From: Prevotella sp.
Lineage (GTDB): Bacteria > Bacteroidota > Bacteroidia > Bacteroidales > Bacteroidaceae
DNA length: 64,000 bases
Direction of reading: 5' to 3'
Assembly (NCBI GenBank): GCA_017847725.1
Contig: JAGAXW010000006.1
Coordinates: 1 to 64,000, forward strand
Part shown: piece by piece, positions 3,780-40,116 of the stretch
Layout of the letters: each line of letters opens with the position of its first letter
How positions within the stretch are numbered: the stretch's first letter is position 1
Position numbers and translations under genes: made by a program
Notes under the pieces: model-generated
What the model was told of the DNA's origin: nothing
The model's database searches: none
Seen by the model: the letters and a program-made list of their open reading frames with translations, nothing else

Positions 3780-4877
3780 TCAGGGTTTTGGCATGATTTT
3801 TAGCCAACAGGCGATAGGATAATGGTCACTGGCATCCATATTGTTGTCAACTTTACAGTTGAAGGGTTGGATATTTTCGGAACAGAACACATGGTCAATA
3901 CGGAATAGGAAAGCCCTCTGATTAAATGACAATCCGATTCCCCTACCCGTCTCTACATAGCAGTCTTTCAGCACCTTACTCATCGCATGGCGCGAATAGG
4001 ACAGCGGGTTGTCGTTGAAATCGCCGCAGACTACTATCGGGTAACCAGCATGCTCACGGACATACTCACAGACACGGTCTATCTGGACCGAGCGCTTGGC
4101 ATTAGCCTCCGCCAGTTTTACCATCAGCAGTTTCGACTCTTTTCTGATAGAGTCGCTCTCCAGCTGGCCTTTCAGAATCTGCTTATATTGACGACGGTCG
4201 TTGTTATTGAGGTGGCAACTCTCGAAGTGGTTGTTGACGACTATCAGCGTGTCCTTTCCTACCTGAAGCCACCATGCCACGCTACCATTGTTAGATTCAG
4301 TATGGTAGTCTATTCGCTCACAGCGCACGATGGGGAAACGGGTATGGATACCCACTGCATTGAAACTCTGTTTCGTATTAGACAGCACAACGGTGTCATT
4401 GTATGCAAAAATTTTCTCATACTCCTTGAAGACATTGTGACGCCATGTATCGTTGTCCTCCTGCACGCACACAATGTCGGCCTTCTCGTCGCGCAAATAG
4501 TCGCGCACCTTCTCAAAGCCATTCTCATATTTATAATTACCGCCATAGCCGCATACATTATACGACACCAGTTTGAAAGTGCTGTCGGGCACCTCCTGAG
4601 ACATGTGAAACGGCATATAAATATGTATAGGGCCATAGGCCAGAAAGAAACCGACGATAGGAATCCACGCTTTGGTCCATTTGAATGTCAGCCAGAAGAA
4701 GAGAAACAGCAGATTGGCAACCACGAAGAAGGGAAACGTCATGCCCAGCGTAGACAATAGCGGGTGGGCTGCAGGATTCAACCGGTCACTATAACCGACC
4801 AGCAGCATAATAATCACGGTGGCAATATTTGCCCCCGCCACCACCTGAATAGTAAAACGCTTTATTTGCTTGATCAC
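3780..4877 (-). CDS. Membrane-anchored endonuclease/exonuclease/phosphatase family protein
   Basis: Three N-terminal membrane helices (about 10-30, 42-62 and 66-88) precede an EEP-fold catalytic domain from about residue 100. Its motifs are visible in order: SYNVCGYGG, VCVQEDND (metal-binding Glu), VVNNHFES, VCGDFNDNP and SDHYPI at the C-terminus. The EEP fold is shared by DNases, sphingomyelinases and inositol phosphatases, so the substrate is open; the active site is probably outside the membrane. The start overlaps the end of the upstream rhomboid gene by 4 nt, indicating translational coupling. Confidence 0.85.
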   Translation of the reverse strand: MIKQIKRFTIQVVAGANIATVIIMLLVGYSDRLNPAAHPLLSTLGMTFPFFVVANLLFLFFWLTFKWTKAWIPIVGFFLAYGPIHIYMPFHMSQEVPDSTFKLVSYNVCGYGGNYKYENGFEKVRDYLRDEKADIVCVQEDNDTWRHNVFKEYEKIFAYNDTVVLSNTKQSFNAVGIHTRFPIVRCERIDYHTESNNGSVAWWLQVGKDTLIVVNNHFESCHLNNNDRRQYKQILKGQLESDSIRKESKLLMVKLAEANAKRSVQIDRVCEYVREHAGYPIVVCGDFNDNPLSYSRHAMSKVLKDCYVETGRGIGLSFNQRAFLFRIDHVFCSENIQPFNCKVDNNMDASDHYPIACWLKIMPKP

Positions 4878-5785
4878 GACTGCCGATTCTGTTCAAACAA
4901 CTTTTTCTTTTCCTCCTTAGTCAGGCTGTCGTAACCGCTCTTGCGTATCTTGTCGAGGATGGCATCTATCTCTTCCTGGTTCTGGCGCTTACGTGCGTTA
5001 TACTCAGCATCCGTTTCTCTCCTGTTGTCGGTCGGTTCTGCCTTCATACGGCTGTTGCGCTGTCGCTCGTCGAAGTGCCGTTTCATATTCTCAAAGAACT
5101 CCTGTCCCCGAGAGCGGTTATATTGCTCCGGATGCTTCTGCCAGTAGCGAATCAGCAGGAATCCAAACACCATACCTCCCAGATGGGCCATGTGGGCGAC
5201 ACCGTCGCCAGGCCCACTCATCGCCTGAACAATTTCCAGGACAAAATAGCCGACAATCAGCCATTTGGCCTTGATAGGAAAAGGAATAGGAATAATGAAG
5301 ATACGCTCGTTCGGGAATATCATGCCAAAGGCCAGCAAGATACCATAGACAGCGCCAGAGGCACCGATGGTCGTCCACAGATTGATATAGTCAGCCGTGG
5401 CATATTGCACTCCTCCTGCACTGACATACTGATAGGCAGCAAGGCCACTCATCGCATAGTCAGCATACTGCACGATTTCCTGCGTAATACCGGCTCCGAC
5501 GCCACATACGATGTAATAAAAAAGGAATTTTCTCGGTCCCCACACGCGTTCAATGACACTTCCGAACATCCAGAGTGCGAACATATTAAAAACGAGATGC
5601 CATATACCACCATGCAGGAACATGTAGGTGATGAACTGGTAAAAATGGAAATGCGTAGCCAAGAAGAAATGGAGTCCGCCCAACTCTGTCAGGTTGATGC
5701 CACTCCGCTCTAACACCATCGTAGCCAAATAAGCCAGCACATTGATGATGAGCAGATTCTTGGTCATGGGAGGTATGTTGTTCAT
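4874..5785 (-). CDS. Rhomboid-family intramembrane serine protease
   Basis: This 303-aa multi-pass protein has the rhomboid catalytic dyad: GASGAVYG at residues 141-148 with Ser143 as nucleophile, and HMAHLGG with His201 as base. The WR/HxxxN region (FLHGGIWHLVFNM, about 57-69) is also present. Rhomboids cut transmembrane substrates within the membrane. A charged C-terminal tail after about residue 225 is cytoplasmic by its composition. The gene is first in a two-gene operon with the EEP hydrolase. Confidence 0.93.
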   Translation of the reverse strand: MNNIPPMTKNLLIINVLAYLATMVLERSGINLTELGGLHFFLATHFHFYQFITYMFLHGGIWHLVFNMFALWMFGSVIERVWGPRKFLFYYIVCGVGAGITQEIVQYADYAMSGLAAYQYVSAGGVQYATADYINLWTTIGASGAVYGILLAFGMIFPNERIFIIPIPFPIKAKWLIVGYFVLEIVQAMSGPGDGVAHMAHLGGMVFGFLLIRYWQKHPEQYNRSRGQEFFENMKRHFDERQRNSRMKAEPTDNRRETDAEYNARKRQNQEEIDAILDKIRKSGYDSLTKEEKKKLFEQNRQS

Positions 5786-5832
5786 ATTGGCAACTGTTTT
5801 ATCAAAAATGTCGTTTTACCTTAACTGCACCG

Positions 5833-5840
5833 CAAAATTA
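5833..5840 (-). promoter_or_regulatory. Promoter -7 box of the rhomboid operon
   Basis: Minus-strand TAATTTTG fits TAnnTTTG and lies 48 bases upstream of the rhomboid ATG. Confidence 0.4.
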
Positions 5841-5922
5841 CGAAAAATATCCTATCCAAAGCACAAAAACAGGGCGATTGGTATTTTTTTTTGCTAAAAA
5901 ACTCATTTTTTTTATTTTTTTG

Positions 5923-5953
5923 TTTGTTTTTTAAATACTTTCCTCTATATTTG
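5923..5953 (+). promoter_or_regulatory. Promoter of the HU gene
   Basis: TTTG (5923-5926), a 19-nt AT-rich spacer and TATATTTG (5946-5953) make a textbook Bacteroidota sigma-ABfr promoter. The leader to the HU ATG is about 45 nt. Confidence 0.85.
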
Positions 5954-6005
5954 CGTCAGAAAAAACAACTTTTTTTAATACAAACCACTTTTAATCAACA
6001 AAATT

Positions 6006-6281
6006 ATGAATAAGACAGAATTAATTGAGAAGATTGCAGCAGGTGCTGATCTGACAAAGGTTGACGCTAAGAAGGCTCTTGATGCCACAATTGCAGCTAT
6101 TAAGGATGCTCTCGTAGAAGGTGACAAGGTTCAGCTCGTTGGTTTCGGTACCTTCGCTATTTCTGAAAAGCCTGCTCGTGAAGGCATCAACCCCGCCACC
6201 AAGCAGAAGATTAAGATTGCTGCCAAGAAGGTTGCAAAGTTCAAGGCTGGTGCTGAGCTCGCTGACGCTGTCAACAAGTAA
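6006..6281 (+). CDS. HU family DNA-binding protein
   Basis: At 91 aa this is the normal length for HU/IHF histone-like proteins, which bend DNA as dimers and compact the nucleoid. The N-terminal [27 protein letters not shown] and the VQLVGFGTF motif before the DNA-binding arm are characteristic. The arm itself reads [25 protein letters not shown]. The gene is monocistronic with its own promoter and terminator. Confidence 0.97.
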
Positions 6282-6300
6282 ATTTTGTAAACAAAAATCA

Positions 6301-6330
6301 AAAGGCTTCCCGATATGGGAAGCCTTTTTT
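6301..6330. terminator. Terminator between HU and the convergent oxidoreductase operon
   Basis: AAAGGCTTCCC, loop GATAT and GGGAAGCCTTT form an 11-bp perfect stem followed by a T run on the plus strand. It can serve both convergent transcripts. Confidence 0.9.
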
Positions 6331-6344
6331 GTGTGGCGAGGTGA

Positions 6345-7349
6345 TTACTTCACCTCCCACGTATCGTTCGTTTCCAGCAATTCAGCGAAGTTGTGATATT
6401 TCTTCTGTGCACTGACTTCGGCAATCTGTGCCTGCACAGCCTCGTCATAGGTAGGTGCTGCGACGTCACGGATTACACCCAGGGCGACGGGGAAGCCGTC
6501 GCCGTTGCCCATCAGGGCCAGCTTCAGCTGCAGCGTGTTGTCCTCACAGTGCGCGTCGTGTACCAGCACGTCGTCGATGGTATAGCCGTCCTTGCCGATT
6601 TCCACGACCTTCAGTCCAAAGCCCTGCTGCACCAGTCCGAACTCGTTGTTCTCGCCGAACACGAGTTTCTCGCCATGGCGCACATAGATGGCATTCTTCT
6701 TACGTCCCTCCTTATTATATACACTCTCGTGAGTACCGTCGTTGAAGATGACACAGTTCTGCAGAATCTCGCAGACCGCAGCCCCCTTGTGCTCATAGGC
6801 AGCCTTCAGTATCTCTACGGTTCCGGCAGCGTCGGTAGCCACAGCACGTGCAAAGAAGTGCCCGCGGGCACCGAAGCAGAGTTCTGCGGGGCGGAACGGA
6901 TCCTCTACCGTGCCGTAAGGGCTCGACTTACTGACGAAGCCACGTGGGCTGGTTGGCGAGTATTGTCCCTTGGTCAGACCGTAGATACGGTTGTTGAGCA
7001 GTATCATGTTGAGGTTGATATTACGGCGGTTGGCATGGATGAAATGGTTACCGCCGATGGCCAGTCCGTCACCGTCTCCGCTCACCTGCCAGACTGTCAG
7101 GTTGGGGTTGGCGACCTTGGCGCCCGTGGCAATGGCAGCAGCACGTCCGTGGATGGTGTTCATGCCATAGGTAGCCATATAGTGAGGCAGACGGCTGGAG
7201 CAGCCGATACCGCTGATGACTGCAATATCTTTCGGTGCTACGCCGATTTCGGCCATAGCCTTATGGAGTGATGCCAGGAAGAAATGGTCACCGCATCCAG
7301 GACACCAACGTGGTTGTCCCTTTTTATAATCATTTGCTGTATAACTCAT
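6345..7349 (-). CDS. korB: 2-oxoacid:ferredoxin oxidoreductase beta subunit
   Basis: This 334-aa thiamine-diphosphate subunit pairs with the alpha gene just upstream. It carries WCPGCGDHF near residue 15, CSSRLPHY, and the ThDP/Mg motif GDGDGLAIGGNHFIHANRRN near residue 91. Such enzymes convert 2-oxoglutarate (or another 2-oxoacid) and CoA to the acyl-CoA, CO2 and reduced ferredoxin. The substrate assignment (2-oxoglutarate rather than pyruvate or branched-chain acids) is inferred from the two-subunit arrangement, so the symbol is tentative. Confidence 0.88.
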   Translation of the reverse strand: MSYTANDYKKGQPRWCPGCGDHFFLASLHKAMAEIGVAPKDIAVISGIGCSSRLPHYMATYGMNTIHGRAAAIATGAKVANPNLTVWQVSGDGDGLAIGGNHFIHANRRNINLNMILLNNRIYGLTKGQYSPTSPRGFVSKSSPYGTVEDPFRPAELCFGARGHFFARAVATDAAGTVEILKAAYEHKGAAVCEILQNCVIFNDGTHESVYNKEGRKKNAIYVRHGEKLVFGENNEFGLVQQGFGLKVVEIGKDGYTIDDVLVHDAHCEDNTLQLKLALMGNGDGFPVALGVIRDVAAPTYDEAVQAQIAEVSAQKKYHNFAELLETNDTWEVK

Positions 7350-7356
7350 AGCATTA

Positions 7357-9204
7357 TTACTTCTTTAATATGTCCTCGAAAGCTTTAACTAACTCTTCTA
7401 CCACAAACGGCTGTCCCTTGACCTGATTGAACTGGTAGGGAACGAAGTTGTCTACCTTCATGCGGAGGTATGCTGCCAACTGTCCCATGTTCTGCTCGGC
7501 CACTACCACCTTCTTGTACTTCTTCAGCACGGCAGCGGTATTCTTAGGCAGCGGGTTGAGATACTTGAACTGAGCCTGGGCCACCTTGTAGCCCTTGCCG
7601 TGCAGCTCGTCCATGGCTGAGTGCAGATGACCATAGGTAGAGCCGAAGCCCACCACGAGCAGGTCGGCGTCTGCCACGTCGCCCTCCACATCCAGATCGG
7701 GCACCTGGATGTTGTCTATCTTCTGCTGGCGCAGACGTGTCATAAGGTCGTGGTTCTCCGGATTCGTAGAGATAGCGCCCGTGTCGGAGTCCTTCTCCAG
7801 ACCGCCCAGGATGTGGGTGAAGCCCTCACGGCCCGGAACAGCCCAGTAGCGGGTACCGTTCTCGGCACGCATATAGGGAGTCCACTTGCCTTTCAGTTCC
7901 TCGGGAACATACGGTGGTGTGATATTGTCCAGTTTAGCCATCTCAGGCAGGCGGAAGGCACCACTACCGTTAGCGATATAGGCATCCGTCAGCAGCACGA
8001 CAGGCGTCATGTGCTCCAGGGCAATCTTACAAGCCTGGAAGGCAGCATCGAAGCAGTCGGCAGGACTGGTGGCTGCCAGCACCGGCATCGGACTCTCGCC
8101 GTTACGACCGAAGAGCACCTGCAGCAGGTCGGTCTGCTCCGACTTGGTGGGCAGACCCGTGGCAGGACCGCCACGCTGCACGTCGAGCACGACGAGCGGC
8201 AGCTCCATGATGACGGCCAGGTTCATGGCCTCACTCTTCAAGCAGATACCAGGGCCAGAGGTCGACGTAACGCCCAGTGCACCGGCAAACGAGGCACCCA
8301 GCGCAGAGGCGCAGCCGCTAATCTCGTCTTCACACTGCACGGTAGTAACACCGAGCGACTTGTGCTTGGACAGTTCGTGCAGCACGTCGGTTGCAGGGGT
8401 GATAGGATAAGAGCCCAAGTAGAGTTTCAGCCCGGCCTTCTCGGCAGCAGCGATGAAGCCATAGGCCGTAGCCTTGTTGCCCGTGATGTCCATATAGCGT
8501 CCCGGCTCCTTGTGCTTTGACTCGATGCGATACACGTTCACAGCACTGGAGTGGGTGTTATGACCATAGTCATAGCCGGCCTGCACCACCTTGATATTAT
8601 TCTCGGCGATGGCCGGTTTCTTGGCAAACTTGTCACGCAGGAAGTTAGCCACCAGGTTCAGGTCGCGGTCGAAGAGCCAGCATACCAAGCCCAGGGCAAA
8701 CATGTTACGACACTTCAGCACAGCCTTGTTATCCATACCCGTATCGGCCAGGCAGTCCTTCACCATCGTCGTCAGCGGGCACTGTACGACACGGTCGGGG
8801 TCGATGCCCAGTTCGCCCAGATAGTCGTCAGTCTCAAAGGCAGCCTTCTTCAGGTCGTTGGGGCCGAACGAGTCGGTGTCGATGATGATGGTAGCCTGCG
8901 GCTTTGAATATTTGAGCTGTGTCTTCAGGGCGGCAGCGTTCATTGCCACCAGCACGTCGCAAAGGTCCCCCGGGGTGTATACCTTTCCAGCACCGATGTG
9001 TACCTGGAATCCACTGACACCGGTCAGCGAGCCTTGCGGGGCGCGGATGTCGGCGGGATAGTCGGGGAATGTTGAGATGCCATTACCTACGGTAGCACTG
9101 ACCGTAGAGAAGATGTTTCCGGCCAACTGCATGCCATCGCCGGAGTCACCCGAGAAGCGTACGACCACCTGGTCGAGCTCCTTCACTTCTAGTTTTTCTG
9201 CCAT
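7357..9204 (-). CDS. korA: 2-oxoacid:acceptor oxidoreductase alpha subunit (gamma-alpha fusion)
   Basis: The 615-aa protein begins with the gamma-type domain (VVRFSGDSGDGMQLAGNIF through about residue 190). The pyrimidine-binding alpha domain follows, including LGSYPITPATDVLHEL and VQCEDEISGCASALGASFAGA. The gene ends 7 nt before korB. I chose the ATG at 9204 because the longer reading to 9237 would begin inside the -7 box at 9235-9242. That gives MAEKLEVKELDQ as the N-terminus. Confidence 0.9.
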   Translation of the reverse strand: MAEKLEVKELDQVVVRFSGDSGDGMQLAGNIFSTVSATVGNGISTFPDYPADIRAPQGSLTGVSGFQVHIGAGKVYTPGDLCDVLVAMNAAALKTQLKYSKPQATIIIDTDSFGPNDLKKAAFETDDYLGELGIDPDRVVQCPLTTMVKDCLADTGMDNKAVLKCRNMFALGLVCWLFDRDLNLVANFLRDKFAKKPAIAENNIKVVQAGYDYGHNTHSSAVNVYRIESKHKEPGRYMDITGNKATAYGFIAAAEKAGLKLYLGSYPITPATDVLHELSKHKSLGVTTVQCEDEISGCASALGASFAGALGVTSTSGPGICLKSEAMNLAVIMELPLVVLDVQRGGPATGLPTKSEQTDLLQVLFGRNGESPMPVLAATSPADCFDAAFQACKIALEHMTPVVLLTDAYIANGSGAFRLPEMAKLDNITPPYVPEELKGKWTPYMRAENGTRYWAVPGREGFTHILGGLEKDSDTGAISTNPENHDLMTRLRQQKIDNIQVPDLDVEGDVADADLLVVGFGSTYGHLHSAMDELHGKGYKVAQAQFKYLNPLPKNTAAVLKKYKKVVVAEQNMGQLAAYLRMKVDNFVPYQFNQVKGQPFVVEELVKAFEDILKK

Positions 9205-9234
9205 TTCTGTTACTATATAGTTTGAATAAGTCTG

Positions 9235-9265
9235 CAAATATACCTATTTTTTATGAGACTGCAAA
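9235..9265 (-). promoter_or_regulatory. Promoter of the korAB operon
   Basis: On the minus strand TTTG (9262-9265), a 19-nt spacer and TATATTTG (9235-9242) match the consensus exactly. The position decides the korA start. Confidence 0.8.
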
Positions 9266-9294
9266 GTAAATTTCATTTTTTCCATTTTTCTGTT

Positions 9295-11151
9295 CTACTT
9301 CGCGGCATACCAATCGTTGATGATGCTGCTCAGCCTGTCGAGATTATAGAACTCCGTGTAGTTGGGGTATCCGTCTATTGGGGTGCCCAGGGCAATAGAC
9401 ACGTGGGGGTCGATGCCGCCGTCGATGTTCCGCCACTGGTTGTCCGTCAGACGGGCACGTGAGCTCGATATCTGGTACTGCAGTCCCCCTGGGGTGCAGA
9501 AATACTGTACGGCACAGGCACCGCCGCCACTCTTCTCTCCAATGATAGGATAGTCCAAGTCCTTCATCAGCGATGAGAACAAGTTGCCGCAGGAGAAAGA
9601 GCGCTCGCTGGTGAGCACGGCAACGTTGAGGTTGTAGTTCACCTCCCGGTCCTTCTCATCCCATTTGCCGTCAAAGTTGCGGTCTACGGCATAGCGAATT
9701 GCCTGCCGCTGGCCGGTAAGGACATTCTCGGAGAAGAATTCAGACTTGTCGGCGACGAGCGATGTCACAGCCATCACCACATCGAGGGAGCCGCCGGGAT
9801 TGTTGGTCACGTCGATGACGAAATTCTTGACCTCCGGGTCCTCGTCAGCACGTTTGAGCGCATCGAGGATGATGACAAGTTCGCCAGTTGTCCTTGGCAA
9901 AACGGTTGGCATGGGTGCCCGACCGGCATAGTAGGCCTCCCACCCGTTGAGGTCGGTGGGTCCGAACTGGTCGAGTATGCAGAAGGCGGTATCGCCCTTC
10001 TTCCTGTAGTAGAGTTCGCCGGGTAGGGCAGTTTTCCGCTGTGCAATCCTTGCAAACATCCGCATAAATCTGGGAAGACGACTTTTCGTCCATTCGTCAA
10101 TCATCATTTTGAGTTCCTTGTGTTCCTCCCCGACCTGCTTATACTTGTCCGGCATGGTAGTGCTGATACCTTGATCTGTGTTTACGAGGTCGAGCATGGG
10201 CCCAATCCTCGTGTGACCTCCGTCTTCGAAGAAAGGCTGCAAGGCACTCATGCCATACAGGTATTCTGCCATGTCGGTAGACTGTAGCAGTTGCTTGATT
10301 TCCTTGCCGTGCTGGATTTCGTCAAGGGTGGCGTCGAGCCCTTTAGAATGGAGACTGTTCTCTATGGCAGCACGTCCTGGTTTGCCGTAGAAATGGTCGG
10401 CGACGAAACACAGTTCACCATATTCGTAGGCAGCCTGCTCTGGTGTGCGCGTCATATGGTTCATGGCTGTTTCGACGAATTTCGGGTCGATATCAACGAT
10501 TTGGGAGTTCGCATTACTGGTGACGAAAAACACCCGTTCGCCGTTGAAGGCAGCCAAATGGTAATAGATGTCGCTGTACATGTCGGAGAGGGTGGCGAAG
10601 GGGAAGTAGACGGTCTGCCCGTTGCCGCGCAGGTCGATGCCGTACTTCTTGAAGTCGAAGCTGACGGTGGCCGTGGCGGGTGTCAGTGCCATGGATTCGT
10701 AGTGGAGGTAGGGTGAACCATCCCAGTAGACGTTTGCCATGCCAGGCCATAGCTGGGTCATCTGGTTGGTGAAGTCCATATAGTTGTCAGAGACAAACGT
10801 CTCCGCTGCAGTGTTCACCACGGCCGTCCCCATGCCATTGTCGAGCTGATAGAGGCCGTCGCCAATTTTCTGAACCTTCACGGTGCTGCCGGGCAGGACA
10901 ATCTTCTGGAAGTCGGCCACTGAGATGTAGGCTACGCCGGGCTTGTCGTCATAGTAGCGGATGTCGACGGTGCCGCTGTCAGTACCGCCCCGGCTGACAG
11001 GAGCCTGGATGGTGGTGTGTGGCTGTTCCTCCTCGGTAGGGTCCGGCTGAGAGTCGACAGGAGGGTCGAGGGTATCGGTACACGCGGTAAACACGAGACA
11101 GAACAGGGGGATGGCAATGGCCTGCAGGTTGATGTCTCTTGTCGTTTTCAT
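9295..11151 (-). CDS. S41 family (C-terminal processing protease-like) lipoprotein
   Basis: From the ATG at 11151 the 618-aa protein begins with a lipoprotein signal peptide, MKTTRDINLQAIAIPLFCLVFTAC, with Cys as lipid anchor. The longer reading from 11181 would add ten residues before it. The C-terminal half is a tail-specific protease fold, with FVIDVTNNPGGSLDVVMAV and SERSFSCGNLFSSL (putative nucleophile Ser in FSCG), then GEKSGGGACAV. No PDZ domain is obvious. It probably acts on peptides at the cell envelope. The catalytic Lys was not assigned with certainty. Confidence 0.8.
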   Translation of the reverse strand: MKTTRDINLQAIAIPLFCLVFTACTDTLDPPVDSQPDPTEEEQPHTTIQAPVSRGGTDSGTVDIRYYDDKPGVAYISVADFQKIVLPGSTVKVQKIGDGLYQLDNGMGTAVVNTAAETFVSDNYMDFTNQMTQLWPGMANVYWDGSPYLHYESMALTPATATVSFDFKKYGIDLRGNGQTVYFPFATLSDMYSDIYYHLAAFNGERVFFVTSNANSQIVDIDPKFVETAMNHMTRTPEQAAYEYGELCFVADHFYGKPGRAAIENSLHSKGLDATLDEIQHGKEIKQLLQSTDMAEYLYGMSALQPFFEDGGHTRIGPMLDLVNTDQGISTTMPDKYKQVGEEHKELKMMIDEWTKSRLPRFMRMFARIAQRKTALPGELYYRKKGDTAFCILDQFGPTDLNGWEAYYAGRAPMPTVLPRTTGELVIILDALKRADEDPEVKNFVIDVTNNPGGSLDVVMAVTSLVADKSEFFSENVLTGQRQAIRYAVDRNFDGKWDEKDREVNYNLNVAVLTSERSFSCGNLFSSLMKDLDYPIIGEKSGGGACAVQYFCTPGGLQYQISSSRARLTDNQWRNIDGGIDPHVSIALGTPIDGYPNYTEFYNLDRLSSIINDWYAAK

Positions 11152-11193
11152 TATCTCGTTTATTTTAGTATGGATTGTCAAGTCTGTATATAG

Positions 11194-12855
11194 CTAATAT
11201 TCGAACGACGAGCCGCCGAGGAATTCGCGGAGCAGCGACGTAGGTGGAATCTGGTCTTCCTGTATCGGCTTGATGTACCGCAAGAATTTCAGTAGTCGGT
11301 AAGCTTCGGCATGCTCGTCACAGTTCTCATACACCTGTTCGAGCAGCGGCTCGGCCTGCCGCTTGATGACGGCCAGTTCGAAGAGCATGGCAGTATTGAA
11401 CATGGCGTCGGCATTCTCCTGATAGGGGAATATCCAGCGGTTTTCGCCCTTGCGCACGCTGGGCCAGCGCCGGATGCTCTCCTGAGCCGACACACCACGG
11501 TATTTATAGTCGCGGATGATTCTGCGCAGCAGGCGGTTGTCGGTAGTCGGGACATAGTTGTGCGAGTCGAGCAGGATGGTGGTCAGTGCCGATGCGTAGA
11601 TACGGAATATCTGCTCGTTGGGAATATCGCCGGTCAGTTCAGGATTCAAGGCATGGATGCCCTCCACTACCAGGATCTCATTGCCCTGTAGGCGCAGTTT
11701 CTTGCCACTGCGCTCGGCCCTGCCCTTCTGGAAGTTATAGCGTGGCAGCTCCACCTCCTCGCCGCGGAACAGTGCGTTCATCTGTTCGTTGAGCAGGGGG
11801 ATATTCAGAGCATGCAGGTGCTCGAAGTCGTAGTCGCCATGCTCGTCGCGCGGAGTTTTCTCGCGGTCCAGGAAATAGTCGTCGAGTGAGATGCCGACAG
11901 GCTTCAGCCCGTTGACAGCCAGCTGCACAGACAGGCGCTTGCAGGTGGTTGTCTTACCGCTACTGCTCGGCCCTGCTATCAGCACCAGTTTGATGCCCTT
12001 GCGGTGGGCTATCTCGTCGGCTATCTGGGCAATCTTCTTCTCCTGCAGGGCCTCACTCATCTGTATAAGCTGCGAGGTGTAGCCCTTGTCTATCGCCTCG
12101 TTGAGGTCGCCCACGGTGCGCAGCCCCAGCAGGTCCTGCCAGCGGTGATGCTCCTTGAATATCTCAAACATCTTGTCCTGGCGGACGAACGGTCCGAGCT
12201 TTGAAGGATCCGTACGTGAGGGGATGCGCAGCAGCACGCCGTCGTAGTAATACTCCAGTCCGAAAAGGTGCAGCTCCGACGTGTTGGTCAGCAGCGTACC
12301 GTAATAGTAGTCCTTGTAGCCGTCCAGGTCGTAGTAGGTGGAATAGAGACGCCCGCTGTTCTGCAGCAGTTTCACCTTCGACAGGCTGCCCATCTGCGTG
12401 AACATCTCGATGGTCTCGGCCGTTGTGGCCTCATAGCGGTGTATCGGCAACTTGGCATCTATCAGCTGCTGCATGCGCTCGCGCAGCAGCGTCACATCGT
12501 CGGGTGTCACGTGCCGTCCGAGCTGCAGGTCGACATAGTAGCCGTTCGACACGGGGATGTCGATGACCACCTTACAGTCCGCCCACAGTTCGTGGGCAGC
12601 CTTACATAATATAAAGAATAACGTGCGCGTATACGCGCGCAAACCACTTGCTGAATGTAGGTCGAGAAATTCGATATCTTTCTGCTTGTACACCCTATAG
12701 TGCATTCCCTCCACCTTGTTATTGACTTTGGCGCTCACCGGACCGTACTCCATTTCAAGCCCCAAAAGAGAAAATATTTCAGAAAGTGTGCTTCCGATGC
12801 TGATATTTAAACTTTTATTATTATTTTTGCAACGGATTTTTGTTTGTTGTTCCAT
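11194..12855 (-). CDS. Nucleoside kinase (uridine kinase-like, TGS-type N-terminus)
   Basis: The 553-aa protein combines a TGS/ThrRS-editing-like N-terminal half with a P-loop kinase domain carrying IAGPSSSGKTTTCKRL near residue 296. Downstream are SLDDYFLDREKTPRDEHGDYDFE and VVEGIHALNPEL, typical of uridine kinase/phosphoribulokinase folds. Family members phosphorylate nucleosides for salvage. This long architecture is common in Bacteroidota and Clostridia. The exact nucleoside is not determinable here. Confidence 0.85.
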   Translation of the reverse strand: MEQQTKIRCKNNNKSLNISIGSTLSEIFSLLGLEMEYGPVSAKVNNKVEGMHYRVYKQKDIEFLDLHSASGLRAYTRTLFFILCKAAHELWADCKVVIDIPVSNGYYVDLQLGRHVTPDDVTLLRERMQQLIDAKLPIHRYEATTAETIEMFTQMGSLSKVKLLQNSGRLYSTYYDLDGYKDYYYGTLLTNTSELHLFGLEYYYDGVLLRIPSRTDPSKLGPFVRQDKMFEIFKEHHRWQDLLGLRTVGDLNEAIDKGYTSQLIQMSEALQEKKIAQIADEIAHRKGIKLVLIAGPSSSGKTTTCKRLSVQLAVNGLKPVGISLDDYFLDREKTPRDEHGDYDFEHLHALNIPLLNEQMNALFRGEEVELPRYNFQKGRAERSGKKLRLQGNEILVVEGIHALNPELTGDIPNEQIFRIYASALTTILLDSHNYVPTTDNRLLRRIIRDYKYRGVSAQESIRRWPSVRKGENRWIFPYQENADAMFNTAMLFELAVIKRQAEPLLEQVYENCDEHAEAYRLLKFLRYIKPIQEDQIPPTSLLREFLGGSSFEY

Positions 12856-29497: not shown

Positions 29498-29568
29498 TGT
29501 CCAATGGTGTAATGGTAGCACAACAGGTTTTGGTTCTGTTTGTGGTGGTTCGAATCCGCCTTGGACAA
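29498..29568 (+). tRNA. tRNA-Gln (anticodon TTG)
   Basis: A 71-nt cloverleaf has a perfect acceptor stem TGTCCAA/TTGGACA and discriminator A. The anticodon arm is ACAGG-TTTTGGT-TCTGT (one G-T pair), giving anticodon TTG, and the T arm contains GGTTCGAATCC. CCA is not encoded. The 3' end from 29553 is the left attachment site of the integrated element. Confidence 0.95.
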
Positions 29569-29569
29569 C
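29553..29569. other. attL: left attachment site in the tRNA-Gln 3' end
   Basis: AATCCGCCTTGGACAAC occurs here within the tRNA T-stem and acceptor and again at 40100-40116. The flanking bases differ on both sides, so the exact identity is 17 bp. Confidence 0.9.
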
Positions 29570-30172: not shown

Positions 30173-30439
30173 ATGACGAAGAATGAAATGAATCTTTTGG
30201 CCACCATGGTGGCAGAGACAGTAGTACAGAAACTGAAGGGCGCGCGCATAAGCGAGGCAGAGTACGTCGACACCAAAGAGGCTGCACGCATTCTGGGTGT
30301 AAGCGAAACTTATATGAGATTCCTCAAACAGGAGTACCCTGATAAGTATCCCACCATCAAAAAAGGCAATACACCCCAAGGTCGGGTTCTTTTCCGCCGA
30401 GATGCATTACTAAAGGACTTTAGACCTGAAACAACATGA
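30173..30439 (+). CDS. Excisionase-like helix-turn-helix protein
   Basis: The 88-aa protein has an HTH_17/MerR-like winged helix in residues 30-85. YVDTKEAARILGVSETYMRFL is followed by the wing region GRVLFRRDALLKDF. Proteins of this kind next to tyrosine integrases act as recombination directionality factors or regulators. It overlaps the integrase start by 4 nt. Confidence 0.75.
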   Translation: MTKNEMNLLATMVAETVVQKLKGARISEAEYVDTKEAARILGVSETYMRFLKQEYPDKYPTIKKGNTPQGRVLFRRDALLKDFRPETT

Positions 30440-31602
30440 GAGGAATTATAAGACTTCCCATCCTAACTATTATATATAATAGGTATAAAACAGCTTCACC
30501 ATCGAGAAATGCCGTGGTGGAGCTGAGAATTGCCTACAACAAGAAACAAAAATACTTGTCTACAGGCATTTTCCTTCTTCCTAAAGAGTGGGATGACCGC
30601 AATCGGTGTATAATCAACAGGACGGATGCCGCTATCTTGAATAAGACACTTGACAAGTTGGTGAATGAGGTTCGTCAGGTCATATATGACATGATAGACG
30701 AAGGTCGCATCGACATCTTTGCTGTTCCTGCCCGAATGCAAGCTAAGAAAAGACGTACCATTACTTTTCTGGAATTCTGCCAGGAACGTGCCACGATACG
30801 CAAGTACGGCCTTTCTCTCCTCCGTCAGAAGGCATGGGATCGCATCGTCAACTTTCTTAGCGACTATGGGAAGTTCGGCAGTTTTGGCGATGTAAACGAA
30901 CCGCATATTATGGAACTTGACCGGTACCTGATAAAAAAGAAGATGATGCCCAGTAGCCGCTGGAATAATTACCATCGGTTCCTCAACAGCTTTATCATCG
31001 ATGCTCAGAAGGAGGGACTGATGCTATACAATCCTTATGACCGCATCCGGATAGAGCGTGGTGATGACAGTGAGGCCATCAACAAGTACCTTACCAGCGA
31101 GGAACTGCAGCTGTTGCGTAATGCCGTCCTGACTGATGTCAAGCAAGACAGGGCGCGTGACCTCTTTGTGTTTAGCTGCTACACTTGTTTGAGCTATGTC
31201 GACCTCCAGGCATTCGATATGAAGAACGTCAAGGAGCGTGACGGTGCGAAAATCTACGAAGGTCATCGTGGCAAGACCTCTGTAGAGTTCACCATTCCCT
31301 TGCTCCAGCCTGCTCTGGATATCATTGAGAAGTATGGTGGGAAGCTGCCTGTCTATAGCAACCAGCGCTACAACCAACATCTTCATGATGTGGTGGAAGC
31401 CGTGGGCATCACAAAGCCCATCACGACGCACTGGGCACGCCATACGGGTGCTACCATCCTGCTTAATGCCGGTGTCCCGATGGATGTCATTGCCAGGATA
31501 GGTGGCTGGAAGGACACCAAAGTCCTGCGGCATATCTATGCAAAGATGCACCCAGAGACAGTGGTTGCAGCGGTTACCGAAATAGAGGACAAACTTAAGT
31601 AA
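30436..31602 (+). CDS. int: Tyrosine-type site-specific integrase
   Basis: The 388-aa recombinase has the Bacteroidota arm-binding (Arm-DNA-bind_5-like) N-terminus, a SAM-like core-binding domain (about 110-200) and a catalytic domain. THWARHTGATILLNAG supplies His and the second Arg. IGGWKDTKVLRHIYAK supplies Trp in the His/Trp position and the nucleophile Tyr. Where most relatives have the first catalytic Arg (TGLRYSD), this one reads TCLSYVDL with Ser, as described for IntDOT of CTnDOT. It should integrate the element at tRNA-Gln. Confidence 0.92.
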   Translation: MRGIIRLPILTIIYNRYKTASPSRNAVVELRIAYNKKQKYLSTGIFLLPKEWDDRNRCIINRTDAAILNKTLDKLVNEVRQVIYDMIDEGRIDIFAVPARMQAKKRRTITFLEFCQERATIRKYGLSLLRQKAWDRIVNFLSDYGKFGSFGDVNEPHIMELDRYLIKKKMMPSSRWNNYHRFLNSFIIDAQKEGLMLYNPYDRIRIERGDDSEAINKYLTSEELQLLRNAVLTDVKQDRARDLFVFSCYTCLSYVDLQAFDMKNVKERDGAKIYEGHRGKTSVEFTIPLLQPALDIIEKYGGKLPVYSNQRYNQHLHDVVEAVGITKPITTHWARHTGATILLNAGVPMDVIARIGGWKDTKVLRHIYAKMHPETVVAAVTEIEDKLK

Positions 31603-31990: not shown

Positions 31991-32071
31991 GGGCAAAGGT
32001 ACACATAATTTCCGAATCCACCAAGTTTTTTGCGAACTTATTCGGTTTTTAACATAATATAATTGGAAATT

Positions 32072-33283
32072 ATGGAAAATAATGATGAAAAGTTCCTGCG
32101 TATAGGAACACAGATATATTTGAAAGAGATTAATCCGTCAGGTCAGGAACAATTGTTGCCATGGTCGACTTCTGCCATATATCAAGACTACGGGAAAGAC
32201 CGTGGTAATGAGATTATCAGCCATATGCCCAAATACGTTGGTTGGGCGAACGAACCATCCCACACTGACTATCAGCCGATCATTGGTAAGTGGCTCAACC
32301 TTTATCAGGCGTTACCCTACGAGCCACGTTCCGGTGCAGACTTCCCCAATATCCAGTTGTTTCTGCAGCACATCTTTGGAAATCTCTATCATTTAGGGCT
32401 TGACTATCTCCAGCTACTATATCTTCAGCCAAAGCAGAAACTACCTATTCTGATGCTGGTGTCAAAAGAGAGAAATACTGGTAAGTCAACCTTCCTTAAA
32501 TTCTTGAAAGCGATTTACGGTGCGAATGCGACATTTAACACCAACGAAGATTTTAAGTCGCAGTTTAATTCTGACTGGGCAAATAAGCTGCTCATTATGG
32601 TCGACGAAGCGTTTCTCGATAAGGTGGAATACACAGAACGGCTGAAGAACCTAAGCACGGCAACCATCTATAAGGCTGAGGCTAAAGGCAAAGACCGTAT
32701 AGAGTGTGACTTTCACGGGAAATTCATCCTCTGTAGCAACAATGTGGAGCGTCCTGTTATTATCGAGCCTGGGGAGACACGCTTCTGGGTGATTCAGGTA
32801 GCAAAGCTTAAGAGTGATGATACCCAACTGCTCGATAAGATGATATATGAGATACCGGCATTTCTTGATTTCCTTGCGCATAGGGAAATGTCCACGAAAT
32901 GCTTTTCTCGTATGTGGTTCTCTTTTGACGATTACCACACCAGGGCACTTGATCGCATCATTGCCAGCAACCGTAGCCGATTAGAACAGCAGATAGCTTA
33001 TGTCTTGGTTGATATTATGGAAAGTTATAGGCTTGATACTATTGACATTTGTCTCAGGGACATATATGCTATTCTTATGTTTCGGGGATGTGCTGGACGT
33101 TATGAACTGGAGGAACGAAATATTAAAAGGGTTCTACAGAATTCGTGGGACCTCACACCTGTTGGAAATGGCCTAACTTATACCAGATATATGCCAAGCG
33201 GTACACAATCAGGTGAATATACTCCCGTCAAAGCTATTGGACGATATTATACTATCAGATATGATTTTATCAAAAATATTTGA
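32072..33283 (+). CDS. Primase-helicase family protein (SF3-like, DUF5906-type)
   Basis: The 403-aa protein has a Walker A motif SKERNTGKSTFLKF near residue 136. A Walker B-like segment KLLIMVDEAFL comes near 175, then HGKFILCSNN with the Asn of sensor 1 and GETRFWVIQV. This is the pattern of phage and plasmid replicative SF3/DUF5906 helicases. I chose the ATG at 32072 over a TTG at 32063. With the Toprim gene and the origin-like array downstream it forms a replication module. Confidence 0.8.
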   Translation: MENNDEKFLRIGTQIYLKEINPSGQEQLLPWSTSAIYQDYGKDRGNEIISHMPKYVGWANEPSHTDYQPIIGKWLNLYQALPYEPRSGADFPNIQLFLQHIFGNLYHLGLDYLQLLYLQPKQKLPILMLVSKERNTGKSTFLKFLKAIYGANATFNTNEDFKSQFNSDWANKLLIMVDEAFLDKVEYTERLKNLSTATIYKAEAKGKDRIECDFHGKFILCSNNVERPVIIEPGETRFWVIQVAKLKSDDTQLLDKMIYEIPAFLDFLAHREMSTKCFSRMWFSFDDYHTRALDRIIASNRSRLEQQIAYVLVDIMESYRLDTIDICLRDIYAILMFRGCAGRYELEERNIKRVLQNSWDLTPVGNGLTYTRYMPSGTQSGEYTPVKAIGRYYTIRYDFIKNI

Positions 33284-33321
33284 CATGGGTTTTCCCAAAC
33301 CGAATATTTCTGTAAAAAACC

Positions 33322-33506
33322 TGTTGAAATTGTTGAATTTGTTGAGGGGCTGTAAATCAACAAGTTACAAGTCAAAAACTCTCAACAATCTCAACAGATT
33401 CAACAAACTACCCTATTTCTTAAAAAATGTAAACCTTATTTTGTTGAGAGTGTTGAGAGTCAACTTTTTAAAAATCAATAAATTAACTCTACTCAACAGC
33501 TCAACA
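33322..33506. repeat. Phased TGTTGA iteron array, candidate replication origin
   Basis: Eleven copies of TGTTGA lie in 185 bp, in clusters of alternating orientation. Plus copies start at 33322, 33331 and 33340; minus copies at 33357, 33382, 33391 and 33400; plus copies at 33442 and 33451; minus copies at 33493 and 33501. Within clusters the period is 9 nt, and 8 nt in the last. The array is AT-rich and lies between the helicase and primase genes. The overlapping 111-codon frame (33213-33548) is judged not to be a gene. Confidence 0.75.
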
Positions 33507-33576
33507 CTTTTTTGGTCGCAATTTCAGAAAACGACGTATCGGAAATAAAAAATATTTACTGATAAAAGAAAAAAGG

Positions 33577-34434
33577 ATGACTACACAGATAAAAGAGATC
33601 AAGGAGAAATACACCTGCCTGGACTACCTCGGCCAGCCAGTGAAAAGAACTGCTCACGGTTTCTTGTACCGGGCACCATGGAGAACGGACACCCACCCAT
33701 CACTGTCTGTCACAGAGAACGGCAGGGGATGGCATGATATGGCCACAGGTGAACACGGCAGCGTCATCGACTTGGTTATGCGATGCCTGAATACTACAGA
33801 CATTGTGCGGGCATGTGAAGAACTGGAGCGTAGCAACCCATCTTTTTCTTTTTCCCAGCCACTCTTAGAGGAGAACGGGGAAAAGAAGAAAGAAGGTGGC
33901 TTTACGAGGTTCGAGGTGACGAAGCTGCAGTCAAAAGGGCTATTCGCCTACCTCTATCAGCGCAAAGTGTACATTGACATTGCCAAGCAGTTCCTTCAGG
34001 AGGCTCACTACTCCTTCCGGCAAGGTGATGATAGTTATCTATATGCCCTGGCATACCCGAATGACAAAGGCGGCTACGAGCTGCGCAGCAGCAAATATAA
34101 GGGTGGTACCAGCCCCAAGGGTATAACTACCCATTGGCATATCGATGGTGCTCCCGTCGTGGTGTTCGAAGGGTTCTTTGATATGCTTTCGTTTGTCACC
34201 CTCTGCGGAGGTGTGAAGCACAATTATATCGTCCTTAATAGCATCGTCAATGTGGATGCCGCCATAGATGCAATTGCAGGACGATGTAGGACAACTTATC
34301 TCTGCCTTGACAATGACGATGCCGGCATGGATGCAACCCAGAAAATTCAAAATGCAATTGCATCCGCAGTTGACATACGACACCACTTCGCCCCTTTTAA
34401 AGACGTGAATGATTATCTTATGAACAAAAAGTAA
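33577..34434 (+). CDS. Toprim-domain primase-like protein
   Basis: The 285-aa protein has an N-terminal region like the primase zinc-binding domain (RAPWRTDTHPSLSVTENGRGWHDMATGEHG) but without the zinc cysteines. The Toprim domain from about residue 185 has VVVFEGFFDMLSF (catalytic Glu) and TTYLCLDNDDAGMDATQKI (DxD). It probably primes replication of the excised element or its transferred strand. The C-terminal part contains two GCAATTGC palindromes. Confidence 0.85.
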   Translation: MTTQIKEIKEKYTCLDYLGQPVKRTAHGFLYRAPWRTDTHPSLSVTENGRGWHDMATGEHGSVIDLVMRCLNTTDIVRACEELERSNPSFSFSQPLLEENGEKKKEGGFTRFEVTKLQSKGLFAYLYQRKVYIDIAKQFLQEAHYSFRQGDDSYLYALAYPNDKGGYELRSSKYKGGTSPKGITTHWHIDGAPVVVFEGFFDMLSFVTLCGGVKHNYIVLNSIVNVDAAIDAIAGRCRTTYLCLDNDDAGMDATQKIQNAIASAVDIRHHFAPFKDVNDYLMNKK

Positions 34435-34748
34435 AAAGCAATTGCAAATGGACGAAAAGAAGAAGCGCAATAATGCCACAATCACCTTTAGCGACAAGGC
34501 TCAGAAGGAAAAGCTACTCCTGCAGTTGAACTCGATGCAATTGCAAAATCTGATGCCTAAGAGTACGCGAGGCAGGGACTGTCAGATGGTCATCTGGGCG
34601 ATTGACTATCTGTACAACCTTGCTGTCAGGGGCAAGATCCGTGTCCAGGTGCCGATGTTCGAGGAAGACAGTCAAGAGAAGTACCAGTTGATTGATGAAA
34701 TAGAGAGGCTGAAAAAGCAATTGCATTGCCAAGATGAAATGCAATTGC
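34270..34748. repeat. Six GCAATTGC palindromes
   Basis: Exact copies start at 34270, 34354, 34438, 34537, 34717 and 34741. Most extend to TGCAATTGCA or AGCAATTGCA. They span the end of the Toprim gene, the 13-bp gap and the next gene, and are read in different codon frames in the two genes (AIA versus QLQ). The DNA rather than the peptide therefore appears to be conserved. Confidence 0.75.
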
Positions 34749-34837
34749 AAATTCAACGTCTAAAGGATCGTGTAAGAGAACTGGAGTGCCTGGAGGAGAG
34801 TTATGTAGACACGATAAACCGGCTAAAGAAGCGATAG
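34448..34837 (+). CDS. Small coiled-coil protein, possible mobilization accessory factor
   Basis: The 129-aa protein has a basic N-terminus (MDEKKKRNNATITFSDKAQK), a middle region of short helices and a coiled-coil C-terminus (about 78-129, IERLKKQL to INRLKKR). The N-terminal half could be a ribbon-helix-helix-like DNA binder. That would fit a relaxosome or replication accessory protein acting on the palindromes that lie inside its own gene. The ATG at 34448 is preferred to a TTG at 34442 that lies within a palindrome. Its stop abuts that of the convergent relaxase. Confidence 0.6.
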   Translation: MDEKKKRNNATITFSDKAQKEKLLLQLNSMQLQNLMPKSTRGRDCQMVIWAIDYLYNLAVRGKIRVQVPMFEEDSQEKYQLIDEIERLKKQLHCQDEMQLQIQRLKDRVRELECLEESYVDTINRLKKR

Positions 34838-36346
34838 TTACCTGTGCCAACCTCCTGAACGTTGTACCACACGCCCCTTCGCAGGTCTCATCATGTGCCT
34901 GGCCATGTGGAAGCATCTCTTGCGCCACTTGTCATCATCTTCCCAAGGATCCTTTCCCCATCCACCTTCAGAACCACCGCCTCCACCGCCATGACTCTCT
35001 GCGAATGTGACAGCTTCTTTGACATATCCAAGGGATAGGGCTGTGGCAACAGCGACTATCTCATTGCCACGTTCTGCCATATCCTCCACGATGGAGCCGT
35101 GGAAGATGTTATCAAGTGCTTCTCTGTCATCGTCATTAAGATCTTGCCGGAAATCATACAGCCTTTCTTGTAGCTTTTTGGCTTCTTCTGCAGCAATGTC
35201 CCATCCTGTCGCACTCATGTCACGAAGTGTCCTGTCTTGCAGTGTCGGCAGGTCTTTATTGATGGCACGCTGCAGTGCATGGTAGTCGCGTTCCGCTTGC
35301 AGCTTTCTCTTGGTAATTTCCGATAGCTGTTCTTCCGCTGTTCTCAGCTTCTCTGTTTTGTCTCTCAGCTTCTCTTCTACCTCGTCCAGTTTTGACTGAC
35401 GCGATTCTATTTCCTTATCCAGCTGTTCTTGTGTAATCTTACCTTCAGCAGCCAGTTTTTTCAAGTCTTCAATTTCTTGGAGGATATCCGCTTTGTTCTT
35501 ATTCAGATTCTCCACCATTTTCGCCAGACCTTTAGTCTTGATGTCAGTGCGTTGCATTTCCCTATTGAGAAGTTTCAGTTCCTCCATCCTGCCACCCACT
35601 TTCTGTTCCAGGTCTTCACAGGTTTTCTTCAGCCATTGCCAGTACTCTTCCGATGTCCTATGCTTGGCTCCCGTGATGTTGATATCCTCGCCACGTTCCA
35701 AGCCCCATTTTGCATTGACGGTGGCAACGGCATCGTGCAGGAAGTTGAATTTCTTCCGGCACTCTTCTTTGTCATTACCGAAAACACAGTGATAGGATAT
35801 CCTGTTTTTCTCGTTGACGGGTACCACGGTACAGTGAACATGTGGGTTCTTCTCGTCGAGATGTACGACGAAAGCTATGATATTTTCCTCGCCGAATTGT
35901 TTGCTGACAAAGTCATACATATCCTTTGCCCATTTCTCGATATCCTCATTGCGTTGGATATGGCTGTTGTCAGCACCTCGTGTGAGATTCACTGTCTGGT
36001 CACCGAAGGCCAGTCGGTGCATCTGGTCTCGTGACCCGCCGAGAATGATGTTGGCGACAGTGTTCCTGTTAGGCGTTTTGCCTTGTTCCCTTTTCTTTCT
36101 GTTGGGATCCTCGATGCCACGGTTACGAAGATTATCATCGAATCGTTGGTCAATAGAATAGTTCTTATTTACAGGCATGATAATCCCACCTTTCCCGACC
36201 TCGAAATTCAGGTCTATCCTGGTAGGGTCGTAGTATCCGTTTTTCTTCTCGTCGGGATTCATCACAGAGTAGTTCCTTAGGTGCTCTCTACTCTCTCCGG
36301 CGCTTATACCTTTGCCTGGTCTTAGGTCGAAAACTTGCTTTGCCAT
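34838..36346 (-). CDS. mob: MobV family relaxase (Mob/Pre)
   Basis: The 502-aa protein starts MAKQVFDLRPGKGISAGESR. The metal-binding relaxase motif HLDEKNPHVHCTVVP is near residue 158, and a long coiled coil (about 245-365) follows. MobV relaxases nick oriT and carry the strand into a recipient through a helper's conjugation system. The His-rich motif is complete. The Gly-rich tail (GGGGGSEGGWG) precedes a basic end. Confidence 0.92.
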   Translation of the reverse strand: MAKQVFDLRPGKGISAGESREHLRNYSVMNPDEKKNGYYDPTRIDLNFEVGKGGIIMPVNKNYSIDQRFDDNLRNRGIEDPNRKKREQGKTPNRNTVANIILGGSRDQMHRLAFGDQTVNLTRGADNSHIQRNEDIEKWAKDMYDFVSKQFGEENIIAFVVHLDEKNPHVHCTVVPVNEKNRISYHCVFGNDKEECRKKFNFLHDAVATVNAKWGLERGEDINITGAKHRTSEEYWQWLKKTCEDLEQKVGGRMEELKLLNREMQRTDIKTKGLAKMVENLNKNKADILQEIEDLKKLAAEGKITQEQLDKEIESRQSKLDEVEEKLRDKTEKLRTAEEQLSEITKRKLQAERDYHALQRAINKDLPTLQDRTLRDMSATGWDIAAEEAKKLQERLYDFRQDLNDDDREALDNIFHGSIVEDMAERGNEIVAVATALSLGYVKEAVTFAESHGGGGGGSEGGWGKDPWEDDDKWRKRCFHMARHMMRPAKGRVVQRSGGWHR

Positions 36347-40099: not shown

Positions 40100-40116
40100 A
40101 ATCCGCCTTGGACAAC
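40100..40116. other. attR: right attachment site
   Basis: The second copy of AATCCGCCTTGGACAAC marks the right end of the integrated element. Confidence 0.9.

Follow-up and report, generated by a model that had tools for sequence, protein, structure and literature searches.

The window analysed here, 64,000 nucleotides of Prevotella sp. DNA, contains a compact array of hexamers that is very probably the replication origin of an excised mobile element, bound by the element's own DUF5906/SF3-type helicase. The best reading is that of a PICI/SaPI-type origin, which the C-terminal part of the helicase would read, and which here resides in a conjugatively mobilizable element.

The array occupies 185 bp (33322 to 33506); the helicase gene upstream ends at 33283. 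It holds eleven TGTTGA hexamers in the order three plus, four minus, two plus, two minus. Plus-strand copies start at 33322, 33331 and 33340, and at 33442 and 33451; minus-strand copies start at 33357, 33382, 33391 and 33400, and at 33493 and 33501. Starts are 9 nt apart in the plus clusters and among three of the minus copies, and 8 nt apart in the last minus pair. An earlier note on this DNA had claimed this number, position, strand and spacing, and all eleven copies were recovered exactly. In 5000 dinucleotide shuffles of the 294-bp intergenic region the hexamer appeared 0.43 times on average and at most 4 times, against the 11 observed. When the 64-kb window was scanned in 300-bp windows by non-overlapping 6-mer count, the array ranked top (11), and the runner-up was a poly-A run (7).

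Four clusters can be delimited: A, three plus-strand hexamers 9 bp apart (33322 to 33345); B, three minus-strand hexamers 9 bp apart (33382 to 33405); C, two plus-strand hexamers 9 bp apart (33442 to 33456); and D, two minus-strand hexamers 8 bp apart (33493 to 33506). The gap between A and B (33346 to 33381) includes the extra minus-strand copy at 33357 to 33362 and is 61% AT, below the 69% of the surrounding region; module A-B has no AT-rich gap. The gaps B-C (33406 to 33441) and C-D (33457 to 33492) are each 78% AT, and the latter is a candidate melting region. The hexamers sit in several inverted repeats, including one of 19 bp and one of 17 bp; clusters B and C contribute to the 19-bp repeat, which is 95% complementary.

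The array belongs to an integrative and mobilizable element (IME) of about 10.5 kb, located at tRNA-Gln and equipped with a MobV relaxase. The tRNA-Gln (TTG) gene, found with ARAGORN (29498 to 29569, plus strand), ends in the left attachment repeat attL, 17 bp (AATCCGCCTTGGACAAC, 29553 to 29569), which recurs identically as attR at 40100 to 40116. Between the repeats lie genes for a helix-turn-helix, excisionase-like protein (30173 to 30439, plus strand; PF12728 at E 0.002, below cut-off, and phrog_66 at E 0.0011); a tyrosine integrase (30436 to 31602, plus strand; PF00589, E 7.9e-14); the DUF5906/SF3-type helicase, the proposed self-loading initiator (32063 to 33283, plus strand; PF19263, 79.8 bits against a cut-off of 27.6); a zinc-ribbon and Toprim (DnaG-like) primase (33577 to 34434, plus strand; PF13155, E 1.8e-15, and TIGR01391, E 3e-13, below cut-off); a small ORF with no family above cut-off (34442 to 34837, plus strand); and the MobV-family relaxase (34838 to 36346, minus strand; NF041497, 153.7 bits against a cut-off of 100, and PF01076, E 1.8e-17). 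This gene set is as expected of an IME. In the helicase, a Walker A-like ERNTGKS begins at residue 136, and the C-terminal part, residues 361 to 406 (33143 to 33283, plus strand), is the proposed iteron reader.

An integrase, attachment repeats and an empty site were all found, as was a relaxase with no accompanying mating apparatus. Of 120 genomes of the genus, 87 had a match to the gene that follows attR on the right, and tRNA-Gln lay within the fetched flank at 16 of 26 right-hand gene loci scanned for tRNAs; at one of them, L147, it stands directly before that gene. Because relatives have tRNA-Gln upstream of the gene that now lies to the right of the element, the intervening 10.5 kb or so must be an insertion. 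Scans that covered part of the element's ORFs detected no conjugation gene and no partition gene; nor was any phage-linked gene (terS, capsid remodelling, interference) found in 10 ORFs with Pfam, in 7 with PHROGs or in 3 window ORFs scanned separately. The relaxase weakly matches tape-measure families through its coiled coil (E 6e-4 and 0.026). No Rep_3 initiator was detected in the 10 ORFs scanned with Pfam or in those 3 window ORFs.

Against the P4-type primase-helicase model TIGR01613 the helicase scores 27.7 bits, below the curated cut-off of 108.7, and it had no match in phage records. A profile search returned no homologue of known structure at E<=1, and three known-structure matches from a single-protein search (E 0.76 to 1.9) were taken as chance. 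Judged by sequence, the C-terminal part is a putative winged helix; four such parts were tested against Pfam, and none matched a family above cut-off, one of them matching DUF7339 at E 0.0026, below cut-off.

Relatives were drawn from samples of 395, 399 and 393 genomes (class, family and order, overlapping) taken from larger groups, and from plasmids and genome contigs; 40 additional genome matches were fetched by hand, and matches that were short or broken, plus a few of full length (those in G548, G702 and G725 among them), were left unfetched. The helicase family is common, with a match at E<=1e-50 in 68 of the 399 genomes of the window's family. From 132 sequences, 129 were tested, near-copies included, after removal of L018 (masked), L019 (no stop) and L020 (the window again). 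Unbroken helicases numbered 123, of which 91 were at least 43% identical; 82 of these were distinct. The array test took the most repeated 6-mer in a 300-bp stretch beginning 30 bp ahead of the helicase stop. It is de novo, in that any repeated 6-mer counts, its P-values have a resolution of 0.005, and it fails on some genuine arrays (L013 contains six TGTTG words yet gave p 0.95).

An array follows the helicase in most of the closer relatives. Where the helicase is at least 43% identical (96 loci, counting the window and near-copies), an array was found in 83 at p<=0.01 and in 89 at p<=0.05; with more distant helicases the corresponding counts were 10 and 12 of 33. At p<=0.05, then, it was absent from 7 closer and 21 distant loci. 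The earlier note had linked the array to both flanking genes, and here the data point elsewhere: at 30 of the 96 loci the fetched stretch gave no Toprim match, yet 26 of those 30 keep the array at p<=0.01, and the partner is the upstream helicase. At four loci without a Toprim match (L055, L060, L070 and L104) a relaxase-like frame comes next, as read by eye. Arrays also stand behind longer DUF5906 frames of 764 to 820 aa in distant relatives: L095, where DUF5906 is joined to a Prim-Pol domain; L031 and L041, where it is joined to DUF3854; and L033, whose frame had no further domain match.

The closest relative, L009, is a Prevotellaceae assembly with a helicase 86% identical to that of the window. 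Its eleven hexamers lie in the same places and agree in 66 of 66 bases, with spacers agreeing at 91 of 119 positions and the region outside the array at 84 of 109. The earlier note had named absence or scrambling of the array in close relatives with both flanking genes as counting against an origin; in this relative it is neither absent nor scrambled. At helicase identities of 44 to 48% (L010 to L017) the same core word recurs in similarly ordered clusters, except that L013 is without the last minus cluster. Conservation in L009, similar order at this distance and a word that tracks the helicase C-terminus give good support to the proposal that the array is an origin candidate bound by an element protein. 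Some of these loci also contain mostly one-strand repeats of an element-specific word (L010, 4410 to 4600; L012, 4480 to 4550; L014, 4470 to 4640; L016, 4560 to 4640), which lie inside a coding frame of 506 to 548 aa (3199 to 4803 in L010) and look like variable linkers.

The word differs across elements, but their facing clusters often retain a common layout. The words found include TGTTG(A/T), TGATGA, TGTAAG (L082), TGTAGG (L132), TGTAAC (L042), TGTTAC (L041, L095) and TGATGC (L026). The TGTTGA unit is therefore not constant; what often persists is the order and spacing of facing clusters. Among 77 clear TGTTG or TGATG arrays, 47 have the strand order > < > <, against a random-strand expectation of 11.7%; the others are > < (13), > < > (8), > < > < > < (8) and one other order. 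In the > < > < arrays the median gap length, for A-B and C-D, is 40 bp, with AT contents of 72% and 70%. Distances of 47, 55, 58 and 66 bp between facing sites recur, and are found in 51, 51, 53 and 47 of the 77 arrays, respectively. Spacings within clusters are mostly 11 and 8, and the 9-nt spacing, for which the earlier note had proposed a conservation search, is common only to L009 and a few others such as L132. The window is atypical in this respect, with its 9-bp spacing and an inner distance of 43 in C-D; the inner distance of A-B is also 43, measured by hand and with the extra minus copy at 33357 left aside. Among 19 arrays examined that have another word or a distant helicase, eight (L028, L033, L042, L086, L094 and L096 to L098) have none of the listed distances. 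Several listed distances occur in L082, L026 and L041, and L132 combines 9-bp spacing with an inner distance of 45 in both modules, in each case counted without a chance control. In L059 and similar elements an inverted repeat, GCCAAAAGAGAA ... TTCTCTTTTGGC, was seen by eye between clusters B and C; it was not seen in the window.

The array word has switched repeatedly on the helicase tree, in step with residues 370 and 392. The 82 distinct helicases were labelled by word: 42 TGTTG, 35 TGATG and 5 unclear. A quickly built tree requires 14 changes of label, compared with a mean of 30.6 for shuffled labels; TGTTG taken alone needs 12 and TGATG 9, of which at least 6 and at least 4, respectively, are forced by well-supported (starred) branches. 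Some switches fall between helicases about 95% identical. A sign test on the starred branches alone has four pairs and cannot reach 0.05.

Of all helicase columns, residues 392 and 370 have the highest mutual information with the word. Residue 392 is Val (32), Lys (9) or Ile (1) with TGTTG, and Thr (17), Ile (13), Val (2) or another residue (3) with TGATG; residue 370 is Gly (23), Ala (10) or Ser (9) with TGTTG, and Thr (18), Ser (16) or Pro (1) with TGATG. In helicase pairs 85 to 97% identical, residues 370, 379, 387 and 392 differ in all 96 cross-word pairs, and in 7, 17, 13 and 18% of the 162 same-word pairs. At 70 to 85% identity, every one of the 576 cross-word pairs differs at 392 and 370, compared with 41% and 46% of the 532 same-word pairs; pairs in both sets share ancestry, and the fractions are rounded to two figures. 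Nine edge-disjoint TGTTG/TGATG pairs gave a similar picture for residue 370, which differs in 99%, followed by 379 in 94%, against a column mean of 25%; the change at 370 is nearly always Gly/Ala to Thr/Ser. Residue 392 differs in 83% of these pairs, behind 370, 379, 389, 387, 405 and 378. Over residues 361 to 406 as a whole, changes amount to 21% in same-word and 31% in cross-word pairs. The window helicase has G370, which fits TGTTG, and is an exception at 392, where it has the Ile usual with TGATG.

The coupled residues adjoin the array at the gene end, and the two may have some shared history. Across six switch pairs, synonymous differences occur all along the gene, although two of the pairs have their highest or joint-highest synonymous count in the last bin, and non-synonymous differences concentrate in residues 351 to 400. 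This combination argues against a simple exchange of gene end and array as one piece, and recombinational hitch-hiking was rejected as the source of the coupling on the same ground: synonymous differences are not confined to the gene end.

The word can be predicted from the protein. The rule, fixed beforehand on 77 helicases, takes 392 Lys or 370 Gly/Ala to mean TGTTG, and 370 Thr/Ser to mean TGATG. The held-out loci came from viral contigs: a first search with a single helicase protein gave no match, and an alignment-based search then gave 46 loci, of which 42 were run, 2 being skipped for broken frames, 3 having no clear word and 37 being scored. The rule named the word correctly in 36 of 37; it missed L211, on which residue 370 alone would have been right, as seen afterwards. 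A nearest neighbour chosen by residues 1 to 299 was right in 30 of 37, and the seven loci on which it failed (L174, L186, L190, L196, L198, L201 and L202) are all right by the rule. Of the scored loci, 12 share at least 98% identity with a training row, and the set may also contain near-copies among its own members; for the loci below 98% the rule was right in 24 of 25. Covariation and held-out prediction together suggest that the C-terminal part of the helicase binds the iterons. The 46 source contigs (L171 to L216) are filed as viral in IMG/VR and encode relatives of the helicase, of which L215 and L216 are only 26 to 29% identical.

A second element in the same genome, L140, lies beside tRNA-Lys and has the same gene order (4744 to 11459 of the fetched locus). 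Compared with the window element, its integrase is 51% identical, its excisionase-like protein 60% and its Toprim primase 63%. GTTACA occurs ten times in the intergenic region that separates its 515-aa helicase from the primase. The two helicases are 39% identical in a BLAST alignment that ends at residue 337 (HMMER aligned them to 365). The word has thus changed together with the helicase C-terminus, and the primase has stayed closer. The L140 helicase has weak matches in phage records, at 26 to 28% identity among the matches listed.

In genomes with more than one element (G537, G620, G767, G679, G711, G625, G689 and G743) the words often differ, which is no more than a hint that a common word is avoided. 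A test of incompatibility as the driver of word choice was not significant: co-resident elements differ in 11 of 17 pairs (permutation p 0.14). Other relatives lie on plasmids. The order helicase, array, Toprim and MobV occurs at 5941 to 11176 of pBUN1 (L043), a 124-kb plasmid of Bacteroides uniformis, with a TGATGA array; this element adjoins the annotated MUN-1 beta-lactamase gene. The helicase also occurs in two small circular plasmid records, L044 (15.9 kb) and L046 (15.0 kb), which may represent the excised form of such elements; a sugar-nucleotide gene of chromosomal appearance in L044 may reflect an assembly fault.

These observations suggest a model for replication of the element. The C-terminal part of the helicase would read the hexamers, which are arranged as modules A-B and C-D, each a set of facing clusters separated by a gap. 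Rings of the helicase would assemble on the facing clusters and melt an AT-rich gap, then turn into the replicative helicase driving replication of the excised circle; the primase, where present, would prime it. Loading on facing clusters, gap melting and circle replication are proposed by analogy with PICIs and SaPIs, and the whole sequence of binding, melting, ring assembly and replication is our reconstruction of what such an origin would do.

Other functions for the array are less convincing. It could be an operator through which the helicase or another element protein controls the primase and mobilization genes, replication starting elsewhere; in the window it does lie just upstream of the primase gene, and many initiators autoregulate. 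This is nonetheless unlikely, since the array keeps its place 3' of the helicase at the loci where no Toprim match follows (26 of 30, p<=0.01) and also stands 3' of the 764- to 820-aa DUF5906 frames, three of which carry an N-terminal Prim-Pol or DUF3854. Nor does the plus strand between 33283 and 33577 contain a promoter word of the TAnnTTTG type, a check that imperfect promoters would escape. Phage P4 has an origin paired with a control site. The two modules here could be divided in a similar way, one serving as origin and the other controlling copy number or partition of the excised circle, in the manner of P4 crr or a centromere, with the helicase or some other protein as its ligand; that of the two module gaps in the window only C-D is AT-rich would suit such a division. 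We regard this as very unlikely: the element ORFs scanned include no partition gene, and the word tracks the helicase. The element's relaxase must have an origin of transfer, and one could place it, or a relaxosome site, in the array. The array is 1.3 kb from the relaxase gene and on its 3' side, however, and its word changes with the helicase C-terminus, which makes this assignment highly improbable.

That the array is part of an overlapping coding sequence is hardly credible either, in line with the earlier view that a coding repeat is unlikely, despite an open plus-strand frame that spans it in the window (33213 to 33548) and, from an inner start, in L009. Nine nucleotides are three codons, the window and L009 show no indel over 265 bp, and their differences outside the hexamers fall 14, 12 and 20 by codon position, but the third-position excess is slight. 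Among 14 other relatives a plus frame is open over 230 bp in L047, L059, L060 and L064, and a minus frame in L066 and L102; in the first four, however, the frame is a different one relative to the helicase stop, and the remaining 8 have no open frame. A repeat peptide would be interrupted by the spacings of 8 and 11, and neither strand alternation nor word switching is expected of a coding repeat. The primase was also considered as the reader of the array and rejected: the L140 Toprim protein stays 63% identical despite the change to GTTACA, and it is the helicase alignment that breaks off, at 337. No Toprim column separates all cross-word pairs, the best differing in 91% against 7%, in a weak control of only 32 pairs (70 to 97% identity).

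The preferred reading, an origin read by the helicase, has a wider form that we hold tentatively, a little short of probable: IMEs of the Bacteroidales and relatives would be many distinct replicons in which helicase and origin repeatedly change a shared word, with a C-terminal code selecting the origin, and the PICI-type origin would extend beyond satellites. In that code, 370 Gly/Ala and 392 Val or Lys would go with TGTTG, and 370 Thr/Ser and, mostly, 392 Thr/Ile with TGATG. If this is true, co-resident elements can avoid cross-replication through the C-terminal code, and the PICI-type origin also drives conjugatively mobilized elements, not phage satellites alone. The TGTTG/TGATG switches provide a natural series for reading and testing origin recognition without protein design.

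The phage P4 alpha protein with ori/crr brings together primase, SF3 helicase and C-terminal origin reading in one satellite-type integrative system; unlike the element here, P4 fuses these activities, uses longer repeats and is phage-packaged. SCCmec, another point of comparison, is a cassette moved by Ccr recombinases. The earlier note knew of no described origin with this unit. That stands for the unit, in that no publication on a TGTTGA-array origin was found in the open-licence literature (a scope outside which most subscription journals fall), but not for the kind: in the available portions of two papers, SaPIs, PICIs and SCCmec have iterons directly 3' of the gene for a self-loading helicase (PMC6092414, PMC7581432). 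The likeness to the PICI/SaPI rep-ori extends, as far as those portions go, to the position of the origin (here a putative one) just behind the gene for the initiator helicase, to two groups of short iterons around an AT-rich region, and to a primase that may be separate or fused; the iteron sequences are given per element in Fig. 2 (PMC6092414, PMC7581432). The element described here differs in its MobV relaxase, its DUF5906 helicase, its two facing modules, its Bacteroidales relatives and the lack of a recognised phage-packaging gene in the ORFs scanned. The SCCmec helicase Cch2 is also of self-loading type, with a C-terminal domain that binds 5-nt repeats directly downstream; in the text available, these are three direct repeats, compared with eleven in both orientations here, and the partner polymerase is CCPol-MP, compared with a Toprim primase here (PMC7581432).

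Among IMEs, SGI1 likewise replicates when mobilized, going by the titles of papers on it, but has a Rep_3-superfamily initiator, and the accessible part of the source mentions no DUF5906 helicase (PMC5704250). The Bacteroides IMEs NBU1 and Tn4555 share a tyrosine integrase and a relaxase and are mobilized by ICEs; their relaxase is MobP rather than MobV, and the same part of that source describes no iteron origin for them (PMC5704250). The portion available of the PICI work states that no other known replicon has the PICI organization (PMC6092414 / PMC7581432); here that type of organization is found in an element built for conjugation. The kind of origin is thus already known, and what is new, as far as searched, is its setting in a conjugatively mobilizable element, the two-module layout, and a natural word-switch series with a testable two-residue code.
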